Below are positions 3,694-34,826 of a stretch of DNA of 64,000 nt, one piece after another. The stretch covers positions 1-64,000 of the forward strand of contig JAFQYG010000002.1 in the NCBI GenBank assembly GCA_017406565.1, read 5' to 3'. The notes beneath the pieces are model-generated. The model worked only from the letters and a program-made list of their open reading frames with translations. It had not been told where the DNA came from and searched no databases. The translations under genes were made by a program, and so were the position numbers. The DNA comes from Candidatus Saccharimonadota bacterium. Lineage in GTDB: Bacteria > Patescibacteriota > Saccharimonadia > Saccharimonadales > Saccharimonadaceae. The first letter of the stretch is position 1. Each line of letters opens with the position of its first letter.

Positions 3694-6600
3694 AATTAAT
3701 AAGAAAAAACAGCCACTAATTGTTTTATCGTTTGTTATTTTTGCAATATGTTTTGGTGGGTTATTTGGACATACGGCATATGCTGATAGTGGTGACGGTA
3801 GTGGTTCTAGTGGTGTTTGTACAAGCGATTGCGGTAAACCTAGTTGGTGGGGTGTCTATCCTTACGATGAACCTGGTAAAGGTGGTATTAGCTGGAAGAT
3901 GTTTAGAACTAGGGATTCGTATTATACTTTATATAAGTTATATAAAATAGATGACTACGATCAAGGCCCAGTGTATTGTAAGGATAAATCTAGACAGGAA
4001 TCACAGGGATGTACTGGTGCTAAAGTGATTGGTGGTTTGAGAAAAGGTGGTTACGATAGATCTTTGGCGACAAAATGTAACAAAGCTGGATATGATTGGT
4101 ATGCGGTTCTGGCTTTTGATGGTTTTCATGATGAAGATATAAAAACTACTATTAGATATTTTGGTCCTTCAGCGGTAGGGGCTACTTATGAGGCTAGCAG
4201 TGGAAATGATTTAGATCTTTATAGACCGAAAACTATCCAAACGCATAATATGCTTAGTAAAAGTCAAGCTTTAACTGCTTTACGTAATGGGACTCTTCCG
4301 ACTGGATCTCGAGTAGATGAAGCTACGGTAAGATACTTTTGTGCGATGGATACAATGGGCACATGTGCAAGCTATACGAATGAAAGCCACTCTTTACCTG
4401 ATGGCCTTGGGTATGTTTGTGTGAGAGATAATGAGTGGCAGGCTCAATCTGTTTTATCTGGTGATGCAAGCGCTACGGCAGGTTATTCTAAAGAGACGGT
4501 CTCGCGAACTGGTTTTATTAGTAACTGTAGTTCTACTAGTGGATGTAATGTGACTTTTACGCATAGAATTAAGCGCACGAGTGGTAATGATACTACTACG
4601 TATACAGTAAGTCGCACTTCTAATTTAACTAAGAGCGATGATTCTGTTAAAGGTATTAATAATGATAATAATGTGGCGAGTGGTTCTTCAAATGCTGATG
4701 GCTCAGCAAAAAAGGTTAGCACGAATTCATTTACTCTGTATCCGGGTATGATTGTGTGTGAGAGAATTACTTATGTATCCATACAAAATAATCCAGCTGT
4801 TTACTCAGAAGTATGCGCCTCAGCATTAGGTAAAGCACAGCCAAATGATCCATCACCTGATACACCAGAAAATCCTGATTCACCATCAGGTGACTCCTCA
4901 TTCATAAATATTAAAGTTAGGAATAAATCGGTTGCTGCATATAATAAATATATGCGGTCAGTCTATGCAAAACCAACTGATAGGATAAAATATCGCTTAG
5001 TTTATAATCCTAAGTTGCAATATACCTATAGGCTTAAAACAACTGTAGGTAGAATGCAGATGAAGGTTAATGGTGGGGGCGCTTATGCTGGTAATAATAC
5101 GTCTTTGGGTTCGTTATTTAATGCCAATATAAACCCAGATTGGAATAATGATTATGCGGTTAGTAATAACTTTGCTACTTCGGATAGGGCTTTACAGCAT
5201 AGCGTAAATAATACTCCTGGTGATATCTCATCAAAGTCAGAAGAAATTCCTGATTCAGGTAGTACTGATTATGTAGTGACAAGCTCAAACGTAGGACATT
5301 CGTTAGATGAGACAGCGACACTTAATAATGGCGTGGTACAAACGCGAAATGGTGGTACCAACGATAATAAAACAACACCATCGCAAGTTGAGTTTACTGC
5401 ATCTGGCGATACTGTTTCAGTAGCTAACGTAACAACTTCTCCTGCTCCGTCTAAGACAGCAAGCGTATTGGTACCATACAACTATGTCAATGAAGCAAAA
5501 GTCACAAACACTAATGAATTTGTCTATGCAGGTGATAATTTCACTGTGTCACATAATTATATTATTAAACCTAAAACTAACAGTCTCACGAGTCCAAGTA
5601 CACCATATATTACAAGTATTGGTGATCCGAGGTGGAAGATACATTTGAGGATAGAAGGAGGAGATTCTTGGTGGTCATCTATCCATAAACCTGGTGAAGA
5701 TGATGACAGCTTCATTGTTTCAGACGATGAAATGTATGGCACCAAAACAATAAGTAAACAAAACGTAATTAATGTTCCGGATATTGCAGCTGGTAGGCGA
5801 ATCTGTGTGCAGACAGCGGTTTATCCAAAAGATAGCTATAGCGACGGAAACATAAATGCGAATGCGTATGATATTAATAATGCCAACTCTTGGTCATACT
5901 CTCCAGAAGTATGTTTCACTGTTGCTAAAAAACCAAGTCTACAGGTTTGGGGTGGCAACATATTCTCACGCGGTAAGATTACAACAGTTAATAGTACTAA
6001 GCGTAGTTTAGCTGGGTATGATGCATATAAGTATCAAATAGAAGGTAATAATAGCATTCATGTATTTGGTTCCTTTGGTGAACTTGGCATAATTGCAAGT
6101 GGCCAAGTAATAGGATTATCTAGTGCTGCAAGTACAGGTTATGGCAATAATAATGGTGGGGTTCTATCGCCTAATCCATTTGGTGTAAATAATGCTTCTA
6201 ATACACCTAACCCTGGTGGTAGTTCAACTAATAGCTTGTGTAAACTTAGCCAATTGTCCTTTGCAAATACTTCATGTAGTGAGGCAGTAGGAATGCTGGG
6301 CAAAACCTCAACTACCACTAACTTAGAAGAAGACAAAAACAACATTCTAGGTAAATTCATCAAAGAACTAGATAGTCCTAACACTGATTCACATGTAGTA
6401 TTAAATGATCGCAATAAAGCTCAAGCTGATGGTACCTACTATTATTATAGTGATAATGACTTAGAAGTAGGTAATAATGCTGCTGAAGTTAGTGTAGCTA
6501 GCTCTACTGTCCAAATGGTGCATTCTGATAACACAGTATACGTTAGAGGCAATATAGTATATGGTGATACATATAAGAAATACTCAGAATTGCCTAAGTT

Positions 6601-6991
6601 AGTACTATATGGTAAGAATGTAGTAATAGACTGTAACGTAACTAGGATTGATGCCCTTATCATTGCTGATGAGAAAGTTGTAACGTGCAATAACTTTAGT
6701 AACCCAAGTGGCGGTAATAATGTGAACGATGGTAACTTAGCAAAGTACGCTAGAAATCATATTAATGATGCAGCTAACTCACAACAACTAAAGATCAACG
6801 GTGCTGTAGTTGCTAAAACCCTCATTGCTAATCGTACTTATGGTGCTGCTACTGGTGCTAACTCTATTGTTCCTGCTGAAATCATTAACTATGATCCTAC
6901 TCTTTATATGTGGGGTGGTCTTGGTAATGAAGAAGGTAGTGATGGTGACCTTGAAGTTACTTTGATGAAAGAAATGGCGCCTAGGAAATAA
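3683..6991 (+). CDS. Very large secreted surface protein
   Basis: This 1102-residue protein starts with a basic signal peptide (about residues 1-35, hydrophobic LIVLSFVIFAICFGG, likely cleavage after AYA). The body is Ser/Thr/Asn/Gly-rich with scattered cysteine pairs, as in secreted adhesins. Around residues 975-1090 a conserved-looking module includes KLVLYGKNVVIDCNVTRID, ALIIADEKVVTC, LKINGAVVAKTLIANRTYGA and a final YMWGG. I recall similar C-terminal modules in proteins encoded near type IV pilus genes in candidate phyla bacteria, but cannot name a family. ATG 3683 is preferred over TTG 3662 because AGGAGA (3671-3676) sits 6 bases before it. Codon use in the last third is richer in CTA, CCT and ACT than neighbouring housekeeping genes. 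No membrane anchor is evident at the C-terminus. Confidence 0.75.
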   Translation: MKSKINKKKQPLIVLSFVIFAICFGGLFGHTAYADSGDGSGSSGVCTSDCGKPSWWGVYPYDEPGKGGISWKMFRTRDSYYTLYKLYKIDDYDQGPVYCKDKSRQESQGCTGAKVIGGLRKGGYDRSLATKCNKAGYDWYAVLAFDGFHDEDIKTTIRYFGPSAVGATYEASSGNDLDLYRPKTIQTHNMLSKSQALTALRNGTLPTGSRVDEATVRYFCAMDTMGTCASYTNESHSLPDGLGYVCVRDNEWQAQSVLSGDASATAGYSKETVSRTGFISNCSSTSGCNVTFTHRIKRTSGNDTTTYTVSRTSNLTKSDDSVKGINNDNNVASGSSNADGSAKKVSTNSFTLYPGMIVCERITYVSIQNNPAVYSEVCASALGKAQPNDPSPDTPENPDSPSGDSSFINIKVRNKSVAAYNKYMRSVYAKPTDRIKYRLVYNPKLQYTYRLKTTVGRMQMKVNGGGAYAGNNTSLGSLFNANINPDWNNDYAVSNNFATSDRALQHSVNNTPGDISSKSEEIPDSGSTDYVVTSSNVGHSLDETATLNNGVVQTRNGGTNDNKTTPSQVEFTASGDTVSVANVTTSPAPSKTASVLVPYNYVNEAKVTNTNEFVYAGDNFTVSHNYIIKPKTNSLTSPSTPYITSIGDPRWKIHLRIEGGDSWWSSIHKPGEDDDSFIVSDDEMYGTKTISKQNVINVPDIAAGRRICVQTAVYPKDSYSDGNINANAYDINNANSWSYSPEVCFTVAKKPSLQVWGGNIFSRGKITTVNSTKRSLAGYDAYKYQIEGNNSIHVFGSFGELGIIASGQVIGLSSAASTGYGNNNGGVLSPNPFGVNNASNTPNPGGSSTNSLCKLSQLSFANTSCSEAVGMLGKTSTTTNLEEDKNNILGKFIKELDSPNTDSHVVLNDRNKAQADGTYYYYSDNDLEVGNNAAEVSVASSTVQMVHSDNTVYVRGNIVYGDTYKKYSELPKLVLYGKNVVIDCNVTRIDALIIADEKVVTCNNFSNPSGGNNVNDGNLAKYARNHINDAANSQQLKINGAVVAKTLIANRTYGAATGANSIVPAEIINYDPTLYMWGGLGNEEGSDGDLEVTLMKEMAPRK

Positions 6992-7064
6992 AAAAAGTTT
7001 ACTTTTTACGTATAGTTTGGTATAATAATAGTACTGCTTAATACTTGTAATAAAAAGGAAACTT

Positions 7065-9206
7065 ATGAATTTAAAAGAAGAAGAGCGTCGTGCCCGGCTC
7101 TTAAAATCGCGGGCTGAGAGGTTGCCAGATATCAAGCGACAGTTTGAAGAGGCACAAAACCGTAATTTTAATTCGAATTTTAAACCTGGTGGTAAAGATG
7201 CTGCGCTTGTAGTTAACAAATCTAAGAATAATGTCACTGTAAAAAAAGTTGCCAAGAAAAAAACTGTTAAAACTGCGAAAAATACAGCGAAATCTGCAAA
7301 ACAAGCTGAAGCTGAACAACGCAAAGTTAATTTGTCTGTGTCTGTGAAAAAAGGCGATATGGTACATCATCAACGAATGCTTTCACAGGATGTTAATGCA
7401 CAAGCAACACAGCATATTATTGGTGTGCCAGTAAATAAATCACGTTATAACGGTTATAATGGCGAACAAGCCACTAATGCAAAATTAAAACAAATGCGAC
7501 CCGATCCAGAAGCGGTACGCATAATTCCGATTGGTGGTTTAGGCGAATTTGGCATTGGTAAAAATATGACAATCATTGAGTACAAATCCGAAATGATTGT
7601 GATTGATATGGGCGTTTTGTTTGCTGGTGAAGATTATCCTGGAGTTAATTATTTAATTCCGGATATAAAATATCTTGAAGACAATATGGCTAAAGTGAAG
7701 GCAATTTTGTTTTCACATGCGCATCTTGATCATATTGGAGCTTGCCGACATTTGTTGCCGAAATTTTCGAATTTAACTCCGATTTATGGGACGGACTTTA
7801 CGCTCGGAATGATTAAAAAACAAATGTCAGAATTAGAAGATGTGCCAGAAATGAATTATATTGCTGTAGATCCATTTAAGCATGAAAAAATTCAAGTATC
7901 GGAACATTTTTCAGTAGAATTTATTCATACTTTACATTCAATTCCTGGAAATACTGCGATAGTAGTGAGGACGCCGAACGGTTTGATTTATCTGTCAGGC
8001 GACTGGCGTCATGAAGAACGACCCATGGGTATACAAACGGACTATGAACGCATCGATGAAATTGTAAAAAATGAAGGGGTGGATTTGATGTTAAACGAAT
8101 CGACTAATATCGATTCGCCTGGTAAGCATCCTCATTCGGAATATGATGTAGGTGAAAATTTAGGGCGCGTGATGGATCATTATGCTAATGGACGGGTGAT
8201 TATCTCGTGTTTTTCATCACAGATTTCGAGAATTGAGTTGATTTTGAAAGAGGCGGCGGCAAGAGGGCGCAAAGTAGCGTTTTCTGGGTTTTCAATGATT
8301 AATAACGTAGAAGTTGCGTTACGTGCAAAAGCAATCAAGGTTCCGAAAGATACGATTGTGAAGATGGAAGACATTATCAAACTTCCAGATGAAAAAGTAT
8401 GTATTGTCTGTACTGGGTCGCAGGGGGAATTGAATGCGGTACTGAATCGGATGGTGACTGGAGCGCATAAATATATCAAAATTAAACATACTGATACGAT
8501 TGTGTTTTCTTCGAATCCAATTCCTGGGAACGAGCCACATGTAGTGTCAACCGTAGATGGACTTCTGCGTGAAGGTGCGCAAGTAATTCAAAATGGTAAA
8601 ACACACTTAACGAATATCGGACCTTTGCATTTGTCTGGGCATGCATACTATGAAGATCATGTGGAATTTGTGACTAGATTACACCCAACTAATTATATGC
8701 CATACCATGGTGAATTTTATATGCTCGAGCATAACGCAGAAATGGCTGAGAATGTGATTGGAATTCCACACGATAGAATTCTGCTTGCGGATGATGGTGA
8801 TATGGTAGAATTATTACCTAATAAGACAATTCGTAAAGCTGGTAGAATTCACGTTGGTAACAAACTCTATGATGATGCAGACCAATTAGTACATGAAGCG
8901 GTTGTGAAAGACAGAATTCATATTTCGCGAGAAGGGATTTTTGTAATTGTACTTACTTTAAATAAGAAGACTGGGCATTTAATGAAGACACCAGATATTG
9001 TGTCGAGAGCGTTTATATATTTGGATAATTCAGAAGAATTGATTGGAAAAATTAGACATTATCTCAGACAAAAAACGGACAAATCAATTTCGACTGATCC
9101 AGAAATGAAGGTTTTGAAAGAAGAGATTAAGGAAGACATTACGCACATTTTGTTTGATGCAACGGGGCATACGCCGATTGTGATACCGGTGATAAATAAG
9201 GTATAA
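7065..9206 (+). CDS. rnj: Ribonuclease J
   Basis: RNase J is a metallo-beta-lactamase/beta-CASP nuclease that combines endonuclease and 5'-3' exonuclease activity in mRNA decay and rRNA maturation. The 713-residue product carries the metal motif SHAHLDHIGA (about residue 217-226), GDWRHEERP, LNESTNID, the beta-CASP signatures FSSQISRIELI, TGSQGELNA and SSNPIPGNE, and the late HLSGHAYYEDH and MPYHGEFYML motifs. The canonical HxHxDH is present as HAHLDH. It is longer than the usual 550-560 residues because of a ~145-residue N-terminal extension rich in Lys, Ala and Asn with no predicted fold. TATAAT at 7021-7026 and AAGGA before ATG 7065 indicate a leadered mRNA. Its stop codon lies within the -10 element of the following trxB-like gene. 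Confidence 0.95.
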   Translation: MNLKEEERRARLLKSRAERLPDIKRQFEEAQNRNFNSNFKPGGKDAALVVNKSKNNVTVKKVAKKKTVKTAKNTAKSAKQAEAEQRKVNLSVSVKKGDMVHHQRMLSQDVNAQATQHIIGVPVNKSRYNGYNGEQATNAKLKQMRPDPEAVRIIPIGGLGEFGIGKNMTIIEYKSEMIVIDMGVLFAGEDYPGVNYLIPDIKYLEDNMAKVKAILFSHAHLDHIGACRHLLPKFSNLTPIYGTDFTLGMIKKQMSELEDVPEMNYIAVDPFKHEKIQVSEHFSVEFIHTLHSIPGNTAIVVRTPNGLIYLSGDWRHEERPMGIQTDYERIDEIVKNEGVDLMLNESTNIDSPGKHPHSEYDVGENLGRVMDHYANGRVIISCFSSQISRIELILKEAAARGRKVAFSGFSMINNVEVALRAKAIKVPKDTIVKMEDIIKLPDEKVCIVCTGSQGELNAVLNRMVTGAHKYIKIKHTDTIVFSSNPIPGNEPHVVSTVDGLLREGAQVIQNGKTHLTNIGPLHLSGHAYYEDHVEFVTRLHPTNYMPYHGEFYMLEHNAEMAENVIGIPHDRILLADDGDMVELLPNKTIRKAGRIHVGNKLYDDADQLVHEAVVKDRIHISREGIFVIVLTLNKKTGHLMKTPDIVSRAFIYLDNSEELIGKIRHYLRQKTDKSISTDPEMKVLKEEIKEDITHILFDATGHTPIVIPVINKV

Positions 9207-32084: not shown

Positions 32085-33188
32085 ATGAATAAACTAAGGA
32101 AACTGTCATTTGTCTTGTTTTTAGTTGTTGTGGCTACCTTTATTTTTTTTGGTCAATCAGTTTATGCAACCGATGGAGTTGTTGAGACGAACTTTTTTGG
32201 TAATATTGAAGACGACAATGAGGGTTGCGGTGTATTTATGATTCTGAATTCAGCCATAGATATAATATCTATGGGCATAGCAATACTCGGTGTTATAGGT
32301 GTGACAATCGTTGGTATTAATTATCTTACGGCGAAAGATAGTGAAGAAAAAACACGGAAAGCTAAAAACCGAATGTTTGAGATAGTGATTGGTCTGGCCG
32401 TTTATGCAGTTTTGTTTGTAGGAGCTCAATGGTTATTGCCTGGAGGCAGAATGAGCAATTCTTGTAATAAAATCAGTGATGATGAGATGGCTGCTATTAG
32501 GAAAAAAGAGCAGAGTGGTAAGCAGAGTTCTGCTAGTGGTACTGCAAGTAGCAAATCTAGTAAAAGTTCATCAAGTTCTTCATATAATAAGACAAAAGCT
32601 TATAAAACTTGTATGAAGAAAGCTTTATTTAAGGACAAAACAGTGAGAGACAAAGTCTGTCAATTAAAAAAAGGTTCAGAAAGAATAGCAAAAACTGCGG
32701 AGCTTTTGGCGGCATCATCCAAAAAAGCTTCTGTACAATGTTATCCTTTAACTTGGAAACCTAAAAAATGGAGTCAGTTTAAAAGATGTGCACCGACTAA
32801 ATATTTTCAATATGCGTACGATAAAGTTAGGCCTGATCATTGGAAAAAGTATACTAATTATGTGAAGAATGTGGTAAGAACTGGGGCCTCTTGTGACTAT
32901 TTTGTGGGAACTGTAGTGAGAGCTTCGGGATACGATGGTATAGGACTTAGCCATGATTCTATGCATAGTAATATGACTAAGGATACTAAAAAGTGGAAGA
33001 AGGTTAAAAAAGCTCAAAGGGGCGATATTTGCCAGAAATACTCTGGAAATGGTGCACATATTAAGATTTATTTAGGAAACGGTAAAATAGCTGAAGCTAG
33101 TAGCGGGCTTCAGACTGGAGATAAAAGATGGGGCGGCGTTACTAGTGGTGGCTGTGGCGGATATACGATTTATCGAGCGACAAAATAA
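32085..33188 (+). CDS. Type IV secretion pilin-type membrane module fused to a CHAP-like peptidoglycan hydrolase
   Basis: The 367-residue protein has a signal peptide (about 1-28), then two membrane helices around MGIAILGVIGVTIVGINYL and MFEIVIGLAVYAVLFVGAQ (about 62-115), joined by a charged turn TAKDSEEKTRKAKNR. This pair is a T4SS_pilin (TrbC/VirB2-like) module. A Ser/Lys linker (145-175) follows, and a C-terminal CHAP-like domain with Cys270 in TGASCDYFVGTVVRASGYD and a His in NGAHIKIYLGNGKIAEASS. The CHAP part is close to the first CHAP domain of the protein at 25127. The pilin-type helices presumably anchor or assemble the enzyme at the membrane, exposing it toward the cell wall or an attached host cell. 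Confidence 0.8.
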   Translation: MNKLRKLSFVLFLVVVATFIFFGQSVYATDGVVETNFFGNIEDDNEGCGVFMILNSAIDIISMGIAILGVIGVTIVGINYLTAKDSEEKTRKAKNRMFEIVIGLAVYAVLFVGAQWLLPGGRMSNSCNKISDDEMAAIRKKEQSGKQSSASGTASSKSSKSSSSSSYNKTKAYKTCMKKALFKDKTVRDKVCQLKKGSERIAKTAELLAASSKKASVQCYPLTWKPKKWSQFKRCAPTKYFQYAYDKVRPDHWKKYTNYVKNVVRTGASCDYFVGTVVRASGYDGIGLSHDSMHSNMTKDTKKWKKVKKAQRGDICQKYSGNGAHIKIYLGNGKIAEASSGLQTGDKRWGGVTSGGCGGYTIYRATK

Positions 33189-33263
33189 TTCATAGTTTAA
33201 AATGTAGGAACGTTATCATTAAATTAGGTGTATTAAAACTATTTACAATTATGCATGGTGTGA

Positions 33264-33269
33264 TATAAT
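33264..33269 (+). promoter_or_regulatory. Leaderless-type -10 (TGATATAAT) of the HTH-MurA gene
   Basis: TGnTATAAT ends exactly 6 bases before ATG 33276. Confidence 0.6.
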
Positions 33270-33275
33270 TTTTTT

Positions 33276-34826
33276 ATGAAAAAAATTCGTAATTATCAAC
33301 AGGTGATTGGTGAGACCGTAGAACATATGCGTCTTGAAAAAGGCTGGACGCAGAAAGAATTAGCTAAGGAAGTCGGTACTAGCCAGTCGGCAATTCATCG
33401 TATAGAAAAAGGTGGTCAGAATATTTCATTAGAGATGGTTAAGAAGCTTTCGGAAGTATTTGGCACGCAAATTCTCTCTATAAATGATTCGGCAAGTCAG
33501 AGTTTTCGAATACGCGGTGGGAAAGAATTAAGCGGTGAAATTACGATAAACACTTCGAAAAATGCTGCGGTAGGGTTGCTATGTGCAGCGTTACTTAATA
33601 ACGGGAAGACTGTTTTACATCGTGTAGCCAGGATTGAAGAAGTATTTCGAATTATTGAGGTTTTAGAATCTATTGGTGTAAAATGTCACTGGACGAATCG
33701 ACACCGTGATTTAGAAATTATATCACCGCGCGAATTAAAATTAGATGAAATGGATATAGAGGCAGCGCGTAAAACTCGTTCGATTATTATGTTTTTAGGA
33801 CCTTTGCTACATCGATTTAAAAAGTTTTCGATTCCATATGCAGGGGGATGCTCATTGGGTACTCGAACGGTAGAGCCACACCTTAAAGCTTTGGAAACTT
33901 TTGGGCTTGAAGTAGATGCTGAGTGTAATAGTGGTTTTTATGAAGTAGAAGTAGATCAAAAAATAATGAAAAATCGAGACGATAGATATATTGTGCTGAC
34001 TGAGCGTGGTGACACAGTGACAGAAAACGTACTAATGGCAGCTGCGATGAATGCTGGTAAGACGACAATCGTTGGGGCTTCTTCAAATTATATGGTGCAA
34101 GATATGTGTTTCTTTTTAGAAAAGTTAGGTGTGAAAATTGAAGGGATTGGTACTACTAGATTGACTATTTATGGGCGAGCTAAGTTTGATATGGATGTGG
34201 ATTATAATATTTCGGAAGATCCGATTGAAGCAATGTCGTTTATTGCTGCTGGGTTAGTAACAAATTCTGAAATAACAATTATGCGGGCGCCAATTGAGTT
34301 TTTGGAAATTGAACTTGAAGTGCTTAAGACTATGAATGCTGATATCGAAAAATCGGAAGAGTACTTATCAGCTAATGGACGAACTAGGTTAGTTGATTTG
34401 ACAGTTAAGAAATCAAAACTTGTAGCACCTGTTGACAAAATTCATCCAATGCCTTTTCCTGGGCTTAATATTGATAATCTACCGTTTTTCTCAATTATTG
34501 CGGCGGTAGCAGAAGGACGAACTTTGATTCATGACTGGGTATTCGAAAATCGTGCAGTTTATATTACTGAATTATCTAATTTGAATGTAAAAGTAGAATT
34601 ACTTGATGCACATCGTGTGTATATTGAAGGGCCAACGAATTTTAGACCAACAGAACTGGTTGCACCACAGGCTTTACGTCCAGCGGTAGTAGTACTAATC
34701 GGTATGTTGGCGGCACCTGGAAAATCGATTCTTAGAAATGTCTATACGATTAATCGTGGATACCAGGACTTTGCGGCGAGACTCCGACATCTTGGTGCGG
34801 ATATTGTACCATTGACCGGTATTTAG
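33276..34826 (+). CDS. murA: UDP-N-acetylglucosamine 1-carboxyvinyltransferase (MurA) with N-terminal XRE DNA-binding domain
   Basis: MurA catalyses the first committed step of peptidoglycan synthesis, adding enolpyruvate to UDP-GlcNAc. Residues 1-70 form an XRE-type helix-turn-helix (GWTQKELAKEVGTSQSAIHR, IEKGGQNISLEMVKKLSEVF). Residues from about 78 are MurA: SKNAAVGLL with the active-site Lys95, the catalytic loop GGCSLGTRTVEPH with Cys192, and PGLNIDNLPFFSI, with the C-terminal RALRPAVVVL-like region. MurA normally has about 420 residues; here 516, the excess being the DNA-binding domain. A fused DNA-binding domain on a wall-synthesis enzyme is unusual and suggests substrate-dependent regulation, perhaps of its own gene. 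The fold assignment of both parts is clear; the regulatory role is inference. Confidence 0.93.
   Translation: MKKIRNYQQVIGETVEHMRLEKGWTQKELAKEVGTSQSAIHRIEKGGQNISLEMVKKLSEVFGTQILSINDSASQSFRIRGGKELSGEITINTSKNAAVGLLCAALLNNGKTVLHRVARIEEVFRIIEVLESIGVKCHWTNRHRDLEIISPRELKLDEMDIEAARKTRSIIMFLGPLLHRFKKFSIPYAGGCSLGTRTVEPHLKALETFGLEVDAECNSGFYEVEVDQKIMKNRDDRYIVLTERGDTVTENVLMAAAMNAGKTTIVGASSNYMVQDMCFFLEKLGVKIEGIGTTRLTIYGRAKFDMDVDYNISEDPIEAMSFIAAGLVTNSEITIMRAPIEFLEIELEVLKTMNADIEKSEEYLSANGRTRLVDLTVKKSKLVAPVDKIHPMPFPGLNIDNLPFFSIIAAVAEGRTLIHDWVFENRAVYITELSNLNVKVELLDAHRVYIEGPTNFRPTELVAPQALRPAVVVLIGMLAAPGKSILRNVYTINRGYQDFAARLRHLGADIVPLTGI

Follow-up and report, generated by a model that had tools for sequence, protein, structure and literature searches.

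A gene in the window (the whole stretch of 64,000 nucleotides analysed) was read, from its sequence only, as MurA fused to an XRE-type DNA-binding domain, which raises the question of whether the enzyme through which UDP-GlcNAc is committed to peptidoglycan synthesis may also act on DNA, and in particular on the promoter of its own gene. The features which bear on this question are collected in Table 1.

One chain carrying two domains

A reading frame check confirmed that ORF 33276-34826 encodes one chain without an internal stop, and both Pfam domains are recovered within this single 516-aa ORF, so that the proposed fusion of an XRE-type helix-turn-helix (HTH) and MurA is borne out. Separate translation of the HTH and MurA parts, which the sequence-only reading had named as an outcome that would contradict it, is unlikely and was discarded because an internal start is not conserved: the window gene has no in-frame ATG, GTG or TTG between codon 54 and approximately codon 100, and no internal start is shared at codons 57-92 among 79 genes of the genus. 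A chimera or misassembly was ruled out, since 80 independent contigs contain a fused homologue of full length and the fusion is also present in nearly all Saccharimonadales genomes sampled. Upstream of murA, ORF 32085-33188 gives weak matches to T4SS pilin and NlpC/P60, and its product may be a cell-wall hydrolase that has a membrane segment at its N-terminus.

Table 1. Positions of the fused gene, its domains and its promoter elements within the window
Feature	Position	Strand	Remarks
HTH-MurA gene	33276..34826	+	516 aa; sole EPSP-synthase-family gene of the genome
XRE/HTH_3 domain	33306..33473	+	residues 11-66
Recognition helix region	33381..33413	+	residues 36-46, SQSAIHRIEKG
MurA domain	33501..34811	+	residues 76-512
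-35 element TTTACA	33242..33247	+	
Extended -10 TGATATAAT	33261..33269	+	5' part is the operator right arm
Predicted operator TATGCAT-GGT-GTGATATA	33250..33267	.	imperfect inverted repeat, 3-bp spacer

A predicted operator over the leaderless promoter

The murA gene of the window is preceded by a -35 element and an extended -10 (TGATATAAT), which is followed by 6 nt and then the ATG, with the Shine-Dalgarno sequence being absent; the leaderless promoter claimed for this gene is thus present, and the distance from the -10 to the start amounts to 6-7 nt in 78/81 genus loci. The motif TAT[TG]C[AG][CT]-N3-[AG]TGATATA[AT]T (TATKCRY-N3-RTGATATAWT) is located before the start in all 81 genus loci (81/81, window included), with almost no information further upstream or in most of the 6-7 nt before the start. 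The palindrome is imperfect in the window's own genus, where its arms are separated by a 3-bp spacer; its left arm lies in the promoter spacer and its right arm overlaps the extended -10, from which part of the right-arm conservation stems.

Beyond the genus a clearer palindrome, TATATCAY-NN-RTGATATA, is observed. Of 198 order genomes, 30 contain the exact 18-mer TATATCRYNNRYGATATA, nearly always as one copy, and it is positioned directly upstream of murA in at least 15 family-level genomes; a reversed control pattern gave 0 occurrences in the 198 order genomes. Operators were scored over 14 positions, with 12/14 or more being considered good, using start codons that were set by rule (by hand for L122 and L171), a few of which may be wrong. 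A score of at least 12/14 was obtained for 46/64 fused genes as opposed to 2/48 genes that are unfused, canonical or decayed (Fisher 5e-14), and covariation between the arms beyond the consensus reached 339 paired cells versus 325 ± 4.7 in shuffles (attained by 18/5000; examples are ATACC..GGTAT in L127 and ATCTC..GAGAT in L228), statistics which, considering that the sequences are related, serve as guides and not as strict probabilities. Genes in which the HTH has decayed (L173, L193) or has been lost (L175, L180) are devoid of the operator: one family contains both L170, with HTH and operator, and L180, with neither, and an intact HTH and the operator are jointly absent from family f45 (L173, L175, L193). 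A good site was not found for some fused genes with an intact HTH (L114, L120, L169). The guess that the promoter could itself be the operator is therefore strongly supported by comparative genomics, in the form of a conserved palindrome whose presence appears to depend on the HTH.

Two further arrangements were noted. In some f52 genomes (L174, L176, L178, L179) the fused murA is preceded by two palindromes, one of which overlaps or abuts the start codon. Moreover, the canonical murA genes of class family f27 (L153, L155, L158) share GTGATATCAT at approximately 60-80 nt upstream, which may be a promoter element.

The fusion, the catalytic residues, the invariance of the recognition helix, the promoter palindrome and its presence or absence jointly with the HTH are read from the sequences, and it is from these that we infer the binding, dimerisation, repression and catalytic activity of HTH-MurA. 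We consider it highly probable that HTH-MurA is a bifunctional, autorepressing trigger enzyme with its operator at its own leaderless promoter. The C-terminal domain, as the cell's only MurA, would convert UDP-GlcNAc and PEP to enolpyruvyl-UDP-GlcNAc, and the XRE domain, presumably dimeric, would bind the inverted repeat with its RTGATATA-type arms over its own extended -10, where bound HTH-MurA would exclude RNA polymerase and consequently repress murA. The location of the site over the -10 element argues for such repression by steric exclusion, and the symmetry of the operator points to dimeric binding, against which counts that MurA is generally regarded as a monomer. If both hold, the level of the enzyme which commits UDP-GlcNAc to peptidoglycan would be under negative feedback, and HTH-MurA very probably switches off its own production.

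The sequence-only reading had suggested that the enzyme could sense its substrate on DNA. This autorepression may in addition be ligand-gated, which we put forward tentatively: UDP-GlcNAc (or UDP-GlcNAc together with PEP) would close the MurA domain, alter its affinity for DNA and thereby report substrate supply to the promoter. MurA is an enzyme that closes upon UDP-GlcNAc binding, and in the structure model the linker which joins the HTH to MurA is predicted to be short (~10 residues), both of which favour gating. The same direction is indicated by trigger enzymes in general, which act as transcription factors when their substrate is absent, according to the part of PMC8249747 in which Commichau and Stulke 2008 is cited. 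Conversely, the linker varies in sequence across the order and is modelled with low confidence, and simple concentration feedback explains all of the data.

Control by HTH-MurA of a wider cell-wall regulon, or a role as global regulator, is improbable. A second exact operator (TATATCATGAGTGATATA) is present directly before murB in one genome (G090, genus g14; L242 8371-8388 and L294), the murB promoter of which scores 14/14 (p 0.003 versus shuffles), and the genome of the window holds one further exact match to the genus motif, before a hypothetical gene. However, a genome usually contains a single exact site, at murA, the scorable murB promoters of the same genomes, employed as a control, lack the operator except in G090, and the hypothetical gene is limited to 8/40 genus genomes. 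A murA/murB regulon was rejected because G090 alone has the operator among the scorable murB promoters, and a second target in the window's own genome because the downstream hypothetical gene is poorly conserved; other near matches inspected in this genome lie within a gene or before unrelated genes.

A further alternative, namely that the palindrome merely belongs to the promoter or is bound by a different regulator, with the HTH fulfilling another role, seems quite improbable. The overlap of the right arm with the extended -10, an element needed by all leaderless genes, would be accounted for in this manner, but the left arm in the spacer would not, since it is absent at the other RTGnTATAAT sites of the same genus loci (0/190); besides, the palindrome tracks both the presence and the integrity of the HTH on murA, and the HTH and the palindrome have both been retained in the actinomycete copies described below.

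The MurA and HTH domains

The Pfam EPSP_synthase domain matches residues 80-502 (E 1.9e-50), and among NCBIfam models the protein passes the MurA subfamily model NF006873 (328 versus a cut-off of 297 bits) and does not pass the equivalog TIGR01072 (307 versus a cut-off of 393 bits), which is indicative of a divergent MurA. Structure prediction, proposed as a check in the sequence-only reading, was performed with AlphaFold2 on 53 genus sequences (mean pLDDT 84), and returned a MurA fold for residues 69-516 and a four-helix HTH (helices 7-21, 26-33, 37-44 and 52-62; pLDDT of the block about 78-93). Superposition of the modelled residues 69-516 on MurA structures gave Z ~45 and 2.0-2.1 Å over ~410 residues, Z being much lower for AroA structures (37 or less). 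HTH-MurA has the fold and the catalytic residues in common with the MurA enzymes of E. coli (PDB 1uae) and C. jejuni (5ujs), at 28% identity, while differing from these by the added N-terminal HTH and by replacement of D369 and the S162-V163-G164 loop, and it differs from ordinary MurA in belonging to a separate, long-branched subfamily.

Alignment to E. coli K-12 MurA equates K95 with K22 and C192 with C115, and N23, R91, R120, D231, D305, R331, R371 and R397 of the E. coli enzyme are likewise kept (K95, N96, R168, C192, R197, D315, D400, R426, R468 and R494 being the kept residues in window numbering); the catalytic set K22/C115(or D)/R120/D305/R331/R397 is accordingly matched by K95/C192/R197/D400/R426/R494. 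The description of an apparently active MurA, based on Lys95 and Cys192, thus gains support from the remaining catalytic residues. D369 and the S162-V163-G164 loop (the UDP-GlcNAc loop), treated here as secondary features which do not define MurA, are replaced throughout the subfamily, for which reason activity on UDP-GlcNAc can be called likely rather than certain. A profile search retrieved a single PF00275 match from the 0.8-Mb genome, in which MurB is also present, and considering the kept catalytic residues HTH-MurA is very probably the cell's MurA. It is consequently very improbable that the MurA domain has lost its enzymatic function and merely senses UDP-GlcNAc on behalf of the HTH: the replaced D369, the altered loop and the score below the TIGR01072 cut-off would fit such a loss, yet the altered positions (Q/P/S/N at position 369 and mostly GDT in the loop) are replaced alike in fused and unfused members of the subfamily, the catalytic set is retained in full, and the genome encodes MurB and no other EPSP-synthase-family protein.

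At the position of Cys115, the canonical Patescibacteria MurAs checked (L142, L145, L197) carry Asp, a feature of fosfomycin-resistant MurA, and the divergent MurA subfamily, fused or unfused, keeps Cys.

Pfam HTH_3 matches residues 18-66 (E 4.9e-16, 58.9 bits versus a cut-off of 23), covering 4-52 of the 55 profile positions. This domain is shared with XRE/Cro-CI-type regulators, many of which bind a palindrome at their own promoter, whereas the HTH of HTH-MurA sits on a biosynthetic enzyme; the closest named HTH models are Y4mF/HipB-type antitoxins, and the closest in the PDB are SinR and HipB. Purifying selection within the genus is as strong on the HTH (dN/dS 0.057) as on the MurA part (0.052). 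Conservation in the genus reaches 99.5% in the recognition helix region versus 89% for the whole HTH, R19, T25, Q26, A30, Q37, S38, R42, E44, G46 and N49 are invariant in 68 fused proteins, and Q37, R42 and N49 are altered in the decayed HTH domains of f45. Invariance of the recognition helix combined with a low dN/dS is not expected of a domain without a fixed DNA target, and DNA binding by the N-terminal domain, on which the sequence-only reading depends, is made probable by this invariance together with the HTH-dependent palindrome. By eye, no correlation between residue 41 (H/N/A) and operator spacing was seen in the listed sequences. A vestigial HTH, or one with a purely structural role in dimerisation or stability, is hardly credible: even though sister-lineage MurA without an HTH (L180-L196) indicates that the HTH is dispensable for catalysis, conservation within the domain is highest at its DNA-contacting positions, and these differ only in lineages from which the operator is missing as well.

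Distribution, known systems and transfer

The closest relatives retrieved by homologue search belong to Candidatus Saccharibacteria, mostly from ruminant guts, with the HTH-MurA of Ca. Nanosyncoccus alces (L016) being 86% identical to the window protein. Matches were obtained in 286/295 sampled genomes of the class; for Saccharimonadales both domains are covered among the matches listed, with rare partial ones, and the fusion is an order-wide trait of Saccharimonadales, throughout which protein and predicted site have stayed together. In the sister orders of the class that were examined, MurA is of canonical length, without an HTH and mostly above the TIGR01072 cut-off. Elsewhere in the phylum the same MurA subfamily is fused in families f52, f67 and f150 and in one f106 genome and unfused in f78, f96, f56, f154, f102, f87, f61, f147 and a second f106 genome; in f45 the HTH has decayed or been lost. 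The search for the same fusion in other candidate phyla bacteria, as had been suggested, therefore yielded it throughout Saccharimonadales and in additional families of the phylum. In a FastTree phylogeny of the MurA domain the subfamily forms one long-branched clade, with unfused members at its earliest branches and also interspersed among fused ones; this distribution makes a single gain followed by several losses likely, with inner nodes being weak. A phage-borne fusion was rejected, as the phage matches listed cover the MurA part only, at ~30% identity.

Saccharibacteria are tiny bacteria which live on other bacteria and possess few regulators, and to our knowledge regulation in these and other CPR bacteria is almost unknown. 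If true, the proposed circuit, in which an enzyme-repressor present order-wide governs peptidoglycan synthesis at its first committed step, would be among the first regulatory circuits in this group for which protein, operator and promoter are all defined. It would also bring cell-wall synthesis into the range of trigger enzymes, and can be tested in E. coli without culturing a saccharibacterium. The open-access papers searched contained no earlier account of an HTH-MurA fusion. XRE-shikimate-kinase-like benzoate regulators (PRK08154), to which the HTH shows weak similarity, consist of an XRE domain and then a metabolic-enzyme-like domain which serves as the regulator's sensor, whereas the enzyme part of HTH-MurA looks active and is apparently the cell's only one. 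Five trigger enzymes with a DNA-binding domain are listed for E. coli, none of them a peptidoglycan enzyme; PutA has a single site of action, located at its own gene (PMC8249747). Like BirA, NadR and PutA, in which a metabolic enzyme and a DNA-binding domain are combined for control of the own gene or the same pathway (PMC8249747), HTH-MurA has an intact enzyme and a DNA-binding domain in one chain and, judging from comparative genomics, a probable operator at its own gene; the likeness is one of anatomy, and the HTH-MurA site differs in overlapping a leaderless promoter.

Outside the phylum, tblastn against the plasmid collection gave just two fused records, those of Streptomyces sp. BHT-5-2 and Nonomuraea gerenzanensis; HTH-MurA is full-length and 61% identical in these, and the two copies share 88% identity. 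HTH-MurA and the predicted operator are located at about 6000-7500 of the respective records (L227 and L228), with the palindromes ATCTCATATGTGAGAT and ATCTCATATCTGAGAT right before the start, in the same position. The G+C content of the two copies (67-68%) is somewhat below that of the flanks (71-76%), and both group with saccharibacterial family f1 (FastTree, support 0.99; placement at f1 level only). This grouping with one saccharibacterial family points to horizontal transfer, which under thin sampling the tree suggests to have proceeded from Saccharibacteria. Known saccharibacterial hosts are actinobacteria, and the actinomycete copies suggest a transfer of protein and operator between epibiont and host lineages. 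The full scenario, in which the epibiont's only MurA senses UDP-GlcNAc via its active site and gates its own leaderless synthesis as a portable module of enzyme-repressor and operator that has moved between Saccharibacteria and actinomycetes, is speculative and rather unlikely to hold in its entirety. Three matching places were detected by tblastn in the Nonomuraea record, where the fusion is thus probably an extra copy. In this record HTH-MurA is followed by an ORF at 7564-8472 that is, by eye, tyrosine-recombinase-like.
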